Below are positions 6,824 to 27,279 of a stretch of 29,861 nt of DNA, in pieces. Within the stretch, counting starts at the first letter, position 1; each line of letters opens with the position of its first letter. Source of the DNA: a virus. The DNA is taken from IMG/VR virus record IMGVR_UViG_3300048587_000356, positions 1 to 29,861 of that record, one strand, 5' to 3'. Below the pieces are notes generated by a model. It was not told the DNA's origin. It worked only from the letters and a program-made list of their open reading frames with translations, and searched no databases. Made by a program: the position numbers and the translations under genes.

Positions 6824-7216
6824 TCAGGCGAGCCCCTGCAGGACCATCTTGTACGGCAGGGCCCACGAGCCGCCGCCGGCCGTCGCCGCGGCCCTGGGCC
6901 CGCCCGGCTCGACCTGGATCTCGCCGCGGAAGATGACCGGATACCAGGCGATCCCCATCGTGTCGACGAGCGTCGTCCCGGGGGCCCCGATGTAGCTGTT
7001 CCAGGCGTAGCGGATCGAGATGACGTCGTAGGGCGTCGGCCCGGTGAACAGGCCGCTGACCTGGAAGATCCGCCCGCGCGTGCCGGCGTAGGTCGCGAGG
7101 ACGCCTTCCACGCCGAAGAACGCCGCCGCCTGGTAGGCCGCCGCGTTGGGGATCTCGACGATGGACACGGCCTCGCCGAACATCGCGTTGCCGTCGAAGG
7201 TCGGGGTGTAGCTCAT
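6824..7216 (-). CDS. Minor tail protein, unknown
   Basis: A 130-residue protein in the tail-tip gene run, with hydrophobic and aromatic beta strands (YDVISIRYAWNSYIGAPGTT, GIAWYPVIFRGEIQV) and few charged residues. It is tightly packed with neighbours: 6 bp after the tail-completion-like gene and 3 bp before the Fn3-like gene. The strand-rich composition suits a distal tail or tube-capping subunit, but I do not recognise a family. There is no obvious ribosome binding site before the ATG, so its translation may be coupled to the gene before it. Confidence 0.6.
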   Translation of the reverse strand: MSYTPTFDGNAMFGEAVSIVEIPNAAAYQAAAFFGVEGVLATYAGTRGRIFQVSGLFTGPTPYDVISIRYAWNSYIGAPGTTLVDTMGIAWYPVIFRGEIQVEPGGPRAAATAGGGSWALPYKMVLQGLA

Positions 7217-7222
7217 GGCGGG

Positions 7223-7711
7223 TCAGCCCTGCGCCTTCAGTTCGCGGTCGAACGCCTCGAGCACCAGTGGCATCACGGCGTCGTCGATGATGTCGTCGTC
7301 CAAAGCGTAGAACGGCCGCTTTTCGCTGTTCCATCCGCCTTCGTCGCGGTCCGTACTCCCGCCGACTTCGTCCGTCGCCCCGGTGCCGTAGGTCATCGTG
7401 ACGGAGTCGGAGTCGACCGCCACCTGGCCTTTCAGCGACTCAACCTTGAGCATGTGCCCCGTGCGGACGAGCGGCTTCGACGAGCCGTACTTCCTGGCCT
7501 TCTGGCTGCGATACGGCTCCTCGTTCTCCGCCAGCGGATTGCCCGTGGCGTCGAGCCCGCGGTCGACCGTCCTCGCGCGAATCCCCTCCGCCACGGCCTG
7601 CGCGATCGACTCGCCTAGGCCTCCGGAGCCGGCGGGCGACGACGATTCGAGGTCCCGGCCGTCACGGTCGGCAAGGTCGGGGATATTGCTGGAATACGCC
7701 GGTCCTGCCAT
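7223..7711 (-). CDS. Tail completion / virion morphogenesis-like protein
   Basis: A 162-residue protein. The middle, RGLDATGNPLAENEEPYRSQKARKYGSSKPLVRTGHMLKVES, has the layout of phage virion-morphogenesis or tail-completion proteins: a basic YRSQKARKYG stretch followed by an L.RTG.ML motif. The C-terminal helix (ALDDDIIDDAVMPLVLEAFDRELKAQ) is also typical. Such proteins usually sit next to head-tail connector genes; here the gene follows the tape measure, separated by an opposite-strand membrane gene. That displacement is unusual. Role by analogy, not proven. Confidence 0.6.
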   Translation of the reverse strand: MAGPAYSSNIPDLADRDGRDLESSSPAGSGGLGESIAQAVAEGIRARTVDRGLDATGNPLAENEEPYRSQKARKYGSSKPLVRTGHMLKVESLKGQVAVDSDSVTMTYGTGATDEVGGSTDRDEGGWNSEKRPFYALDDDIIDDAVMPLVLEAFDRELKAQG

Positions 7712-23726: not shown

Positions 23727-24986
23727 TCAGACTCGGAGCGGCTTGACCGTCATCCCGCCGGCCCTCTTGATTAGCGGCTGGAGGGCGTAGCGGATCGCGT
23801 CGATCACGTGGTTGTGCTTGTCGACCACGTCGGGCAGCACGTTGCCGGTGCGGCGATCGACCTTGTACGAGTACAGCCGCATTTCCTCGGCGGTGCGGAC
23901 GCAGCGGGGATGCACGACGATGCGGTCGTAGGCCCCGCGGAGGTGGGCGATGCCGTCCTCGACGGACCCCGACCACTTGGCGGCGGCCTCGATGCTGTAG
24001 CCCTGGTTCCTCAGGTGGCTGATCGTCTCGGGGCGGGCGGAGTCGGCCCGGATGCGGGTCTTGCGCGAGTCGGGGAAGCGGTCGAACAGGGCCGGGATAT
24101 CCATCAGTTCGACGTGGGCGCCGTAGGCTTCGCGCTCGACCCAGAGGTTCGACCCGAAGATCCAGCAGCGGACGCGGACGGTCGGGTCGACGGCGAAGCC
24201 CCAATCCGCCCCGTCGTAGGGGCCGTCCCAGACCGGGCCTCGCTTCGGGTCGACGTTGGGCTCGAACTCGGCGACGCCCCACTTGCCGTGCATCACCTGA
24301 GCGTCGCTGTGGGTGGCGTACTTCCCCTCCCAGACGTGGTGGTAGGCGTCGGGGTCGCGGCGGAGGTCGTTGAGGCGTTCGGCTTCGAGGACCGCCGGGA
24401 ACCACGGGTTGTCCCGCCAGTTCATCTCGACGATGCGGGCGTCGGCGGGCGGGCTCTCGATGAACCGCTTGTCGGTCGCGCTCCCCTTGACCTCGGGGTT
24501 CCAGGTCAGCCAGATTTCCGAGCCCGGCAGGCGGATCGTCGGGACGAGATCCTTCCAGCTCTGCTCGCTGACGTACTCGGCCTCCTCGACCCAGCACCGA
24601 CGGAATCGGCTCTTGGACTTGATCCCCTGCGTGTTGTAGCGGAGGCCGGAGTAAACGAACTCGGTGGCCGCGCCGCCGGGGAAGTAGCCCGGCCTGGTCC
24701 TCAGGAACTCGCGGCCGTACTCGTAGTAGTCCTGGAGCCCAAGGTCGTCGACCAGCCCGCAAAGCTCGGCGTGAACGCTGTCCTTGAGGCTGATCTGGAG
24801 TTCCCGGGCGCAGAGGATCGGCCCCGGCTCCCGCAACCCGTCGATCAGCAGCATCGCCGCGAACGAACGGCTCTTGGCGCTGCCACGGCCGCCGTAGGCC
24901 CCGCGATACCGCGCCGGCCCCTCGAAGACCGGCCGCAGCTTATCCGGCAGTTGGACCGGTATCGTCGTCGTCGCGCTTCGGGGCAT
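23727..24986 (-). CDS. terL: Terminase large subunit (PBSX/Terminase_3 type)
   Basis: A 419-residue protein that packages DNA: ATPase motor plus headful-type nuclease. Walker A is GGRGSAKS at 32-39 and Walker B with catalytic glutamate is CWVEEAE at 131-137. DADARIVEMNWRDNPWFP follows the ATPase core. Nuclease-type acidic residues appear in DGADWGFAVDP, RADSARPET and the C-terminal DKHNHVIDAIRYAL, as in Terminase_3 C-terminal domains. The start lies 47 bp inside the TerS gene, with no clear Shine-Dalgarno site, suggesting coupled translation. Length is normal for this family. Confidence 0.93.
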   Translation of the reverse strand: MPRSATTTIPVQLPDKLRPVFEGPARYRGAYGGRGSAKSRSFAAMLLIDGLREPGPILCARELQISLKDSVHAELCGLVDDLGLQDYYEYGREFLRTRPGYFPGGAATEFVYSGLRYNTQGIKSKSRFRRCWVEEAEYVSEQSWKDLVPTIRLPGSEIWLTWNPEVKGSATDKRFIESPPADARIVEMNWRDNPWFPAVLEAERLNDLRRDPDAYHHVWEGKYATHSDAQVMHGKWGVAEFEPNVDPKRGPVWDGPYDGADWGFAVDPTVRVRCWIFGSNLWVEREAYGAHVELMDIPALFDRFPDSRKTRIRADSARPETISHLRNQGYSIEAAAKWSGSVEDGIAHLRGAYDRIVVHPRCVRTAEEMRLYSYKVDRRTGNVLPDVVDKHNHVIDAIRYALQPLIKRAGGMTVKPLRV

Positions 24987-25461
24987 TCACGAACTCGACG
25001 CGGAAGGCGGGGGACGCCAGCGGCTCGCCGTTCCTCCCGGTGATCTCCTGCTTGACCCGCTCGCCATACAGCTCCGGGTGCTGCTGGGCCGCCAGCTTGA
25101 ACCTCGCGTCGACCCTCAGCCGGGACCGGGCCACGAACTCCGTGTTCATCACCTCTTGGCCCCGGACGATCTTCACGTCGCGGCTGGAGTCGTCGGCGAT
25201 GTCGAGCACGTCGTCCATCAGCGCGTGGGCCTGGGATTGGCGTGCACGCATGTAACTGTCCGAAAACCCGACGTAGGTCTCGTCGCCCCTCTCGCCCTTC
25301 ACCACCCAGAGCAGGACGGTCGAGCGTGCGGGCATGCCGTCTTCGGCGCAGATCGAGGACAGGCTCTTGCCCTCGGCCAGCTTCACGCAGATCGAGTCGC
25401 CGAGTTCGACCGTGTAGTCGGTCGGCCGCCCCGCCTTGGTCTGTACGGTCTCTTCCTGCAT
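24940..25461 (-). CDS. terS: Terminase small subunit, Sf6-type HTH
   Basis: A 173-residue protein; the ATG at 25461 is preferred since the frame before it is nonsense. It begins MQEETVQTKAGRPTDYTVEL and continues with an HTH domain (ICVKLAEGKSLSSICAEDGMPARSTVLLWV) characteristic of Sf6 gp1-like small terminase subunits. A helical middle (SDSYMRARQSQAHALMDDVLDIADD) and VNTEF/VDARFKLAAQQHPELYGERV also match the family. It binds phage DNA at the packaging start and stimulates TerL, whose gene begins 47 bp before this one ends. Confidence 0.85.
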   Translation of the reverse strand: MQEETVQTKAGRPTDYTVELGDSICVKLAEGKSLSSICAEDGMPARSTVLLWVVKGERGDETYVGFSDSYMRARQSQAHALMDDVLDIADDSSRDVKIVRGQEVMNTEFVARSRLRVDARFKLAAQQHPELYGERVKQEITGRNGEPLASPAFRVEFVNAPKRDDDDTGPTAG

Positions 25462-25466
25462 GGCTC

Positions 25467-25826
25467 TCACGCTGTCGGTTCGATGCCCGCGTCCAGGTCG
25501 CCGCTGTACCGTGCCGCCTCTTCCCGCTCGGCCTTGGTCATGGCCCGCCAGGGTCCGTCGGACTCCTCGCGGAGCGCGTCGGCTTCCGGCGTCTCGCCCT
25601 TGCCCTCGCGGTCGAGCTGGTGAATGCGGAGCGTCAGGGCCTTGAAGCATCCCAGGTGGTCGGGCGGCTTGGTCGCCTCGCGATCGTCGTCCGTCATCCG
25701 CTCCCACGGCCCGTCCATGTCGTCGCGGAGGGCGTCGGCTTCGGGGCCGCTCCCCTTGCCGGCCTCGGCCAGCCGATCGAGCCTGGCGGCTAGTTCGTCA
25801 TAGCGGTCCAGGTCTTCGCGGCTCAT
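25467..25826 (-). CDS. Protein of two tandem SPEADALRD-type repeats
   Basis: A 119-residue protein upstream of TerS. It consists of two copies of one unit of about 45 residues: RLDRLAEAGKGSGPEADALRDD with DGPWERMT and RIHQLDREGKGETPEADALREE with DGPWRAMT. The unit, a helix, G-x-x-PEAD-x-LR, and DGPW, recalls a short uncharacterised domain I associate with Planctomycetota proteins (memory, not searched). It may be regulatory or a DNA-packaging accessory. No catalytic residues seen. Confidence 0.7.
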   Translation of the reverse strand: MSREDLDRYDELAARLDRLAEAGKGSGPEADALRDDMDGPWERMTDDDREATKPPDHLGCFKALTLRIHQLDREGKGETPEADALREESDGPWRAMTKAEREEAARYSGDLDAGIEPTA

Positions 25827-25959: not shown

Positions 25960-25972
25960 TGATCGTGCCAGG
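25960..25972 (-). repeat. 13-bp direct repeat, copy 1 (3' of tRNA-like element)
   Basis: CCTGGCACGATCA on the minus strand begins three bases after the 3' end of the anticodon-less element. An identical copy is at 26452-26464, two bases after the 3' end of another tRNA-like element. Confidence 0.7.
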
Positions 25973-25975
25973 GAG

Positions 25976-26034
25976 CGTCATGGGCGGGATTCGAACCCGC
26001 GACCTAAAGCTCTAGCCAACTGAGCTACCATGAC
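25976..26034 (-). ncRNA. 59-nt tRNA-like element lacking the anticodon arm
   Basis: It has a perfect 7-bp acceptor stem (GTCATGG with CCATGAC), the U8-A9 linker, a 4-bp D stem GCTC/GAGC with loop AGTTGGCTA, and a perfect T arm (GCGGG-TTCGAAT-CCCGC). The last base is G and no CCA is encoded. Between D stem and T stem only TTTAGGTC remains, so the 17-nt anticodon arm is missing while a variable-loop-like AGGTC stays. It lies 3 bp from the tRNA-Trp gene. It cannot decode; it may be a processed decoy, a precise deletion relic, or an RNA with another use. Confidence 0.7.
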
Positions 26035-26037
26035 GAG

Positions 26038-26110
26038 CACGAGGGGAGGGATTCGAACCCCCGACCATCGGATTTGGAATCCGACGCTCTCCCGACTGAG
26101 CTACCCCCGT
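26038..26110 (-). tRNA. tRNA-Trp (CCA)
   Basis: A complete 73-nt cloverleaf: acceptor ACGGGGG/CCCTCGT with one G-T wobble, D arm GCTC/GAGC, anticodon stem TCGGA/TCCGA with loop TTCCAAA giving CCA, variable TGGTC, T arm with loop TTCGAAT, and discriminator G. The anticodon CCA and G73 fit tryptophan. No 3' CCA is encoded. It is one of the few intact tRNAs here and likely supplements the host's own tRNA-Trp during infection. Confidence 0.97.
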
Positions 26111-26451: not shown

Positions 26452-26464
26452 TGATCGTGCCAGG
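26452..26464 (-). repeat. 13-bp direct repeat, copy 2
   Basis: Identical to 25960-25972 (CCTGGCACGATCA on the minus strand), two bases after the 3' end of the truncated tRNA-like element and between it and the 103-residue gene. Confidence 0.7.
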
Positions 26465-26466
26465 TA

Positions 26467-26516
26467 ATTCAGGCTGGGGAGTCGAACCTGTAAGCGTCGC
26501 TTACCAGTTCGGCCGA
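26467..26516 (-). ncRNA. Truncated tRNA-like element (pair 2, second member)
   Basis: A T-loop TTCGACT followed by CCCCA and GCCTGAA recalls the 3' half of the element at 27137-27207 (TTCAACT, CCCCA, GCCTTAA). Only about 25 bases lie between the preceding element and the T arm, the 5' strand of the T stem is unpaired (ACAGG), and a GTAAGC-GAC-GCTTAC hairpin occupies the space. A D-loop-like AACTGGTAA is present. Probably a decayed copy. Confidence 0.35.
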
Positions 26517-26590
26517 TGCGATGGGCCGGGGTCGAACCGACATGGCGCCGCCTGCCGAGCAGCGCCCGCCCCTCCGACGGGGCCCACCGC
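26517..26590 (-). ncRNA. Divergent tRNA-like element, Ala-type anticodon (pair 2, first member)
   Basis: A 74-nt sequence that folds as a canonical cloverleaf: acceptor GCGGTGG/CCATCGC (one G-U), D stem CCCG/CGGG, anticodon stem GCTGC/GCGGC with loop TCGGCAG (anticodon position GGC, alanine), variable GCCAT, and T arm GTCGG-TTCGACC-CCGGC. A73 fits alanine, but U8 and U33 are replaced by G and C and the alanine G3-U70 pair is missing. The anticodon stem can be extended to 8 bp. Likely decayed or specialised rather than a working tRNA. Confidence 0.45.
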
Positions 26591-27012: not shown

Positions 27013-27136
27013 CGATTCGGCTCCAGTGGCCGTCGCGTGAATGGAATTGGTTCGCGCCTTGTCCTCGGCAGGTCGCCACTCCTGCGTCGACCGCCTACGC
27101 GGCCATCCTGGGCGTCTAGACGACGAGGGCAAGGAG
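27013..27136. other. Gap without a gene; perfect 10-bp palindrome
   Basis: 124 bp between the tRNA-like pair and the SH3-like gene. It contains the perfect 10-bp palindrome CGTCTAGACG at 27113-27122 and the Shine-Dalgarno region of the next gene. No ORF or clear promoter recognised. Confidence 0.5.
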
Positions 27137-27207
27137 CTTAAGGCTGGGGAGTTGAACCCCATTCAGACGAGTTTTTGCCCGCCTAAGATACCGACCTTCC
27201 GCCTGAG
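27137..27207 (-). ncRNA. Divergent tRNA-like element (pair 1, second member)
   Basis: A 71-nt sequence directly after the Gly-type element. T arm TGGGG-TTCAACT-CCCCA is perfect and D arm AAGG-TCGGTA-TCTT keeps the GG of the D loop. Acceptor CTCAGGC/GCCTTAA pairs at only five of seven positions, and the anticodon stem GGCGG/TCGTC closes an 8-base loop GCAAAAAC. No clear anticodon can be assigned. Its 3' half matches the truncated element at 26467, showing that the two pairs share an origin. Confidence 0.4.
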
Positions 27208-27279
27208 AGCGATGGGCTGGGGTCGAACCAGCGAGGCACAGCCTGGGAAGCTATGCATGGGCCCTGACGCCCCCACCGC
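27208..27279 (-). ncRNA. Divergent tRNA-like element, Gly(CCC)-type (pair 1, first member)
   Basis: A 72-nt cloverleaf: acceptor GCGGTGG/CCATCGC, D stem GCGT/ATGC with GG in the loop, anticodon stem ATAGC/GCTGT (extendable to seven pairs) with loop TTCCCAG giving CCC, variable GCCTC, T arm GCTGG-TTCGACC-CCAGC, and U73. G1-C72, C2-G71, U73 and C35-C36 are the known glycine identity elements, so it could be a working tRNA-Gly. But base 8 is G, not U, base 26 is missing and the D loop lacks A14/A21. Confidence 0.5.

Follow-up and report, generated by a model that had tools for sequence, protein, structure and literature searches.

The usual explanations for tRNA genes in phages are codon supply and the replacement of tRNAs that have been cut. 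A tRNA body without decoding capacity is familiar from tmRNA, whose tRNA-like domain has an alanine-type acceptor and no anticodon. In mascRNA, recruitment of RNase P and RNase Z by the tRNA elbow needs no aminoacylation (PMC11693755). Some phage tRNAs escape host defences that target tRNAs; they retain the anticodon arm and take the place of depleted tRNAs in decoding (PMC10264068, PMC11555353). Other enzymes act on the acceptor end: the anti-phage nuclease Cas12a3 cuts tRNA CCA tails by way of the acceptor and T arm, and still does so when tRNA loops are removed (PMC12851939), and MenT toxins extend tRNA 3′ ends (PMC11541572). Annotation tools discard or mislabel anticodon-less tRNA-like RNAs, and we found no description of anticodon-less phage tRNAs in the open-access papers that we searched.

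In this study, we analysed a 59-nt tRNA-like gene that has no anticodon arm, located in a 29.9-kb viral record from IMG/VR (hereafter the window, meaning the whole stretch of DNA at its full length), together with a class of similar elements from other phages. Taken together, our results suggest that the element is a maintained RNA whose function is not decoding, and not a single tRNA gene that has broken down.

Results

The window carries terminase, portal, scaffold, major head and tail genes on its minus strand, and the element and its neighbours lie on the same strand (Table 1). Read from 5′ to 3′ (26034 to 25976), the element is GUCAUGG UA GCUC AGUUGGCUA GAGC UUUAGGUC GCGGG UUCGAAU CCCGC CCAUGAC G. 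An initial reading made from the sequence alone had described intact acceptor, D and T arms with a canonical T loop and U8, and this description holds, every acceptor, D-stem and T-stem pair being a standard pair. The same reading had put the element 3 nt from a tRNA-Trp gene; the gap is correct, and the tRNA lies on the 5′ side. It had also proposed that a 17-nt anticodon arm was lost, leaving 8 nt between the D and T stems. The 8 nt stand, but a normal tRNA has 23 here; since the normal variable loop AGGUC is kept and a 3-nt bridge (UUU) spans the gap, 15 nt net have gone, and not 17. The nucleotides CUCC follow G73, and C-1 is able to pair with G73.

Table 1. Coordinates of the anticodon-arm-less element, its parts and the neighbouring genes in the window
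Feature	Position	Strand	Remarks
Anticodon-arm-less tRNA-like gene, 59 nt	25976..26034	(-)	position 1 = 26034, position 73 = 25976
Acceptor stem, 5′ strand, GUCAUGG	26028..26034	(-)	7/7 pairs with 25977-25983
D arm, GCUC-AGUUGGCUA-GAGC, with G18 G19	26009..26025	(-)	4/4 pairs
8-nt linker UUUAGGUC, in place of anticodon arm	26001..26008	(-)	
T arm, GCGGG-UUCGAAU-CCCGC	25984..26000	(-)	5/5 pairs
Acceptor stem, 3′ strand, CCAUGAC, and G73	25976..25983	(-)	CCA not encoded
tRNA-Trp(CCA), intact	26038..26110	(-)	ARAGORN; RF00005 69.4 bits; 3 nt upstream (5′ side) of element
Terminase small subunit, next recognised gene downstream of element	24940..25707	(-)	phrog_1482, E 1.1e-34
Terminase large subunit	23727..24986	(-)	phrog_3717, E 1.6e-56; 990 nt from element

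A covariance search, which the sequence-only reading had called for, aligned the element end to end with the Rfam tRNA model (RF00005; 48.4 bits, E 1.3e-7 over the whole window, cut-off 29 bits), covering model positions 1-71 and skipping the anticodon arm. ARAGORN, run on the window, reported the neighbouring tRNA-Trp(CCA) and did not report the 59-nt element. The predicted fold has an energy of -24.3 kcal/mol (z -3.1), and none of 200 shuffled sequences was equally stable. A covariance model of the class, built from 50 elements with the window element among the training set, gave the element 74.8 bits, compared with 39.3 for the adjoining tRNA-Trp; in other loci searched, normal-length tRNAs reach about 50 bits at most. 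The same model also matched a 59-nt stretch at 7202-7260 (+), a weak match with an unpaired acceptor that we took to be chance.

The tRNA island around the element consists of atypical or decaying tRNA-like genes. ARAGORN calls a tRNA-Ala(GGC) at 26517-26590 and a tRNA-Gly(CCC) at 27207-27279 (both minus strand), which are atypical, fall under the Rfam cut-off and have a common acceptor stem (GCGGUGG:CCAUCGC); the anticodon stem of the Gly-like unit is 7 bp. More degenerate tRNA-like stretches at 27053-27206 and 26455-26516 (-) include a Glu-like unit with stems largely kept and loops changed, a unit ending GGGGUUCAACUCCCC and a fragment without its 5′ half. A 13-mer, CCTGGCACGATCA on the minus strand, occurs at 25960-25972 and 26452-26464, after two tRNA-like units of the island. 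The five closest relatives of the window (terminase 85% identical) have no RF00005 match, lack the element and show no similarity to the window upstream of the terminase genes.

Searching for the form of the element and not for its sequence, which proved decisive, we scanned 2.9 million viral contigs with a pattern consisting of a D arm, 4-15 nt and a T arm. At least 119 stretches match, corresponding to about 100 such elements, and a narrower linker sub-pattern returned only members already listed, which indicates that the viral list is near complete for the strict pattern. A separate strict pattern, designed for close copies of the window element and run first, gave no matches. Because the pattern constrains parts of the D and T arms and leaves the acceptor stem, D loop, position 48 and outer T stem free, acceptor pairing, the D-loop GG and C48 are fair tests of whether the matches are tRNA-like. 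Among unselected distinct viral matches with 8-9 nt linkers, all seven acceptor pairs form in 54 of 66, the D-loop GG is present in 66 of 66 and C48 in 65 of 66. In an alignment of 50 distinct members, 99.8% of cells are paired, compared with 68.6% after shuffling, a figure inflated by the choice of members with intact 7/7 acceptors. The informative part is that all seven acceptor pairs covary, with varied pair types at each position; the covariation score is 0.80, against 0.15 for shuffled alignments and 0.10-0.14 for slid controls. The window element has the features of the class: a 7-bp acceptor, a D arm, an 8-9 nt linker ending in C48 and a T arm.

Linker length in the class has its mode at 8 nt; linkers shorter than 7 nt are almost absent, and lengths of 13-15 nt form a trough. 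The counts from an unbiased sample were 20 (8 nt), 8 (9 nt), 6 (10 nt), 1 (11 nt), 5 (12 nt), 2 (13 nt), 1 (14 nt), 0 (15 nt) and 31 (16-19 nt), and none of the six 10-nt cases has a full acceptor. The consensus of the 8-nt linkers is approximately C-W-Y-G-G-K-K-C, and the linker of the window element, UUUAGGUC, is identical in the Polaribacter phage Danklef and in an Oleispira MAG. The group with 16-19 nt between the D and T stems (loci L121-L239, for example L157, L194, L148 and L121) is a second kind of phage tRNA, with miniature anticodon hairpins whose 2-5 nt loops make normal decoding impossible, and with the acceptor intact in 18 of 31. A further set of viral loci (L001, L018, L021, L049, L053 and L110) has the linker AACUGGCGAC or a similar one; the acceptor pairs poorly, and CGAAAG or AUGAAA comes next. 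Large-phage tRNA arrays also contain tRNA(CAU)-like genes that have lost the D arm and kept the anticodon arm (L193:2187-2246, L149:4444-4503 and L190:7218-7278).

Of 50 viral records, 22 have the element as their sole RF00005 match, and several others have it kilobases away from ordinary tRNA genes. The form is almost absent from bacteria: a set of 85,000 bacterial genomes (GTDB) yielded 86 stretches, about 21 of them with a full acceptor; several of these 21 are identical to viral copies and are therefore probably prophage. Most of the other bacterial stretches are Bacteroidota loci without an acceptor stem. Some of these loci (L257, L258, L300 and others) encode YrlA-like RNAs with an extra T-arm-like hairpin after the D arm, giving a T-D-T order, and since they fall under the Rfam cut-off they are probably unannotated. 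BLAST searches of INPHARED with the tRNA region and with single elements returned mostly ordinary tRNAs and the arm-less form in Danklef only; a Vibrio match proved to be a full tRNA-Phe. The element of Danklef (MT732458), a cultured phage, is annotated 'tRNA-OTHER, Undet', and the paper describing the phage merely counts it as one tRNA (PMC8776804). The same form is found in dozens of unrelated phages but not in the five closest relatives, and the conservation among close relatives that is seen in several families of the class does not extend to the window element. The argument that the element is not mere decay is supported by the recurrence, in many unrelated phages including Danklef, of a form with intact arms, an 8-9 nt linker and a covarying acceptor.

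The acceptor ends of the class are heterogeneous. G3:U70 occurs in 14 of 81 members, and all 14 have A73 (p 6e-5); this alanine set of G3:U70 with A73 is found in 14/81 members versus 16/512 normal phage tRNAs (p 6e-6). The members that have the full alanine identity set, about one in six, are probably charged with alanine. G-1 is present in 14 of the 20 members with C73, forming the histidine pair (p 1e-6), but many G-1:C73 members have acceptor helices that are extended further, up to 10 bp, which weakens the apparent histidine pair. Extensions of at least 3 bp (3-10 bp), which would be incompatible with a normal CCA end, occur in 12/81 members versus 7/512 normal tRNAs, and CCA is encoded in 15/81 versus 206/512 normal phage tRNAs. 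We rejected the idea that all members share one synthetase identity, in that acceptor stems are varied and 53 of 81 members have neither the alanine nor the histidine set. The window element, with its G73, has neither G3:U70 with A73 nor G-1:C73. Given this heterogeneity, the common denominator is the elbow and a helical acceptor rather than amino-acid identity.

Comparison of the element with its flanks is possible in three linker families, the others being too alike overall to tell. Element identity is 0.93 in the first, with flanks at 0.28 upstream and 0.52 downstream; 0.86 in the second, with flanks at 0.27 and 0.32; and 0.98 in the third, with flanks at 0.39 and 0.46. In the UGUAGUGUC family, changes fall mainly in the acceptor stem and are compensated. 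Because the element is conserved where the flanks are not, it is retained as a unit, not as a piece of a single gene, which argues for an RNA maintained for its own sake and acting away from its neighbours. We also looked for a common target gene beside the element and rejected the idea: the neighbours encode terminase, portal, endolysin, transcription-regulator, cold-shock-like and unknown proteins. In one Microbacterium-type phage family (L028, L029, L076, L090, L091, L104 and L282), a 13-15 bp hairpin lies directly upstream of the element, changes in the hairpin are compensated, and in most members a conserved gene starts 18-35 nt downstream of the element.

Discussion

Our results lead us to favour, tentatively, a model in which the element is a phage-borne, non-decoding mimic of tRNA shape that acts in trans on enzymes recognising the elbow and acceptor. 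The mimic would consist of a complete acceptor-elbow body (acceptor, D and T arms and variable loop), with about 3-4 nt replacing the anticodon arm. It would be transcribed within phage operons; RNase P would free its 5′ end, RNase Z or other nucleases would generate the 3′ end, and CCA would be added where the 3′ end permits. Since the elbow and acceptor are what RNase P and RNase Z recognise, as in mascRNA, both should be able to process the element. The mature RNA would then occupy enzymes that read the elbow and acceptor shape and not the anticodon. This proposal agrees with the sequence-only reading in seeing a non-decoding RNA that keeps all the features read by tRNA-handling enzymes, its arms and core bases being intact. 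That reading had also considered a decoy for anticodon nucleases, a role that we regard as unlikely and that is unsupported because the part such nucleases cut is the part that is absent; by the same token, the mimic would be immune to them.

The likeliest benefit to the phage would be a decoy or sink for acceptor-end activities, for example CCA-cleaving or CCA-modifying defences. By analogy with the enzymes that act there, a decoy for acceptor-end defences is plausible, and it best fits the features that are kept and those that are lost. A single target for all members is doubtful, because few encode CCA and some have extended acceptor helices. We are cautious about a broader proposal, which we consider possible but doubtful: that the elements form an undescribed family of anticodon-less tRNAs in phages of many bacterial phyla, serving as trans decoys for acceptor-end enzymes and as a counter-defence proof against anticodon nucleases. 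The recurrent arm-less form serves neither codon supply nor tRNA replacement, since it is unable to decode and is often the sole tRNA-like gene in a record. It thus offers a small RNA for direct tests of non-translational roles of tRNA shape in phage infection, with Danklef as a cultured starting point.

The main rival, which is possible although we doubt it, is that the element acts in cis as punctuation, an RNase P/Z site between phage genes whose cutting sets the 3′ end of the upstream mRNA and the 5′ end of the downstream one, the excised body being a by-product. Many copies do lie between co-directional genes, and about a dozen, Danklef's included, sit 12-38 nt ahead of a start codon with a Shine-Dalgarno sequence. 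A strong hairpin ending within 6 nt upstream of the acceptor is found in 14/81 members versus 28/456 isolated normal tRNAs (p 0.002), and a terminase gene lies within 3 kb in 12 of 25 cases versus 5 expected, a comparison in which ordinary tRNA genes were not the control. That RNase P can process a tRNA-like element is known from mascRNA (PMC11693755). However, the neighbouring genes vary among members, the element is conserved while its flanks turn over, most copies have no adjacent hairpin, and the window element comes after a tRNA that would do the same job. A different concern applies to the window copy, which could have arisen by deletion from an ordinary tRNA within a degenerating island, its likeness to the class being convergent. 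Covariation excludes decay for the class as a whole. For the window copy such an origin is possible because the relatives lack the element and the island is atypical or decaying, with tRNA-like units that have odd loops and a fragment among them; shortened tRNAs, including D-arm-less ones, also occur in large-phage tRNA arrays. Nevertheless, we judge local decay unlikely: the three arms and every core contact are perfect, and the linker is of the commonest class length and the same as in Danklef and the Oleispira MAG. Membership of the class is the more likely account of the window copy, given its perfect arms and class-typical linker.

Two further explanations assign the RNA a specific partner. 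In one, a synthetase that does not read the anticodon (AlaRS, possibly HisRS or LeuRS) would charge the element as a minimal tRNA, and the aminoacyl group would go to a use other than ribosomal decoding. The association of G3:U70 with A73 and the excess of G-1 in C73 members are what such a carrier would predict, and leucylation of E. coli tRNA-Leu survives removal of the anticodon arm (PMC9976931). Set against this are the majority of members with neither identity set, acceptor stems that are otherwise unconstrained, the many G-1:C73 cases that are part of longer extended helices, and the lack of any of these sets in the window copy, so that we consider a carrier role quite improbable. In the other, the element would be a bacterial Y RNA of the YrlA type, a tRNA-like module recognised by Ro60-type proteins. 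The YrlA model (RF02553) does give a weak match of 30.9 bits (cut-off 69), but it spans two tRNA-like genes, linking the T arm of the tRNA-Trp to the D arm of the element. The Y-RNA-like matches of our pattern, in Bacteroidota (YrlA 38-43 bits in the three tested), have no acceptor stem, whereas the window element has one. We therefore rejected YrlA membership for the window element and regard a Y RNA as very improbable. Of the readings considered, a trans-acting mimic of tRNA shape is the one that we prefer.

Comparison with known systems

Compared with canonical tRNA (RF00005), the element has the same acceptor, D and T arms, U8, G18 G19, T loop and variable loop with C48, but it has no anticodon arm with a 7-nt loop and hence does not decode; the class, moreover, usually has no encoded CCA, and some members have extended acceptor helices. 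The phage-encoded tRNAs that evade host defences resemble it in being phage tRNA genes tied to tRNA-targeting defences of the host, and differ in that the window element is unable to decode. Among non-decoding RNAs, mascRNA and menRNA (RF01684) are likewise tRNA-like, about 60 nt long and keep the elbow. They are eukaryotic, however; their D arm is small and a remnant stem occupies the anticodon position (PMC11693755), whereas in the phage form the D arm is full and a third arm is missing. The window element scores 20.6 bits with RF01684, under the 42.5 cut-off. YrlA (RF02553) is a bacterial case of D- and T-arm mimicry without decoding, but its T arm precedes its D arm, it lacks an acceptor stem and it has a Ro60-binding stem. 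The tRNA-like domain of tmRNA shares G3:U70 and A73 with some members of the class, which differs from tmRNA in having no mRNA part or tag and a true D arm; the window element is matched by RF00005 and not by tmRNA.
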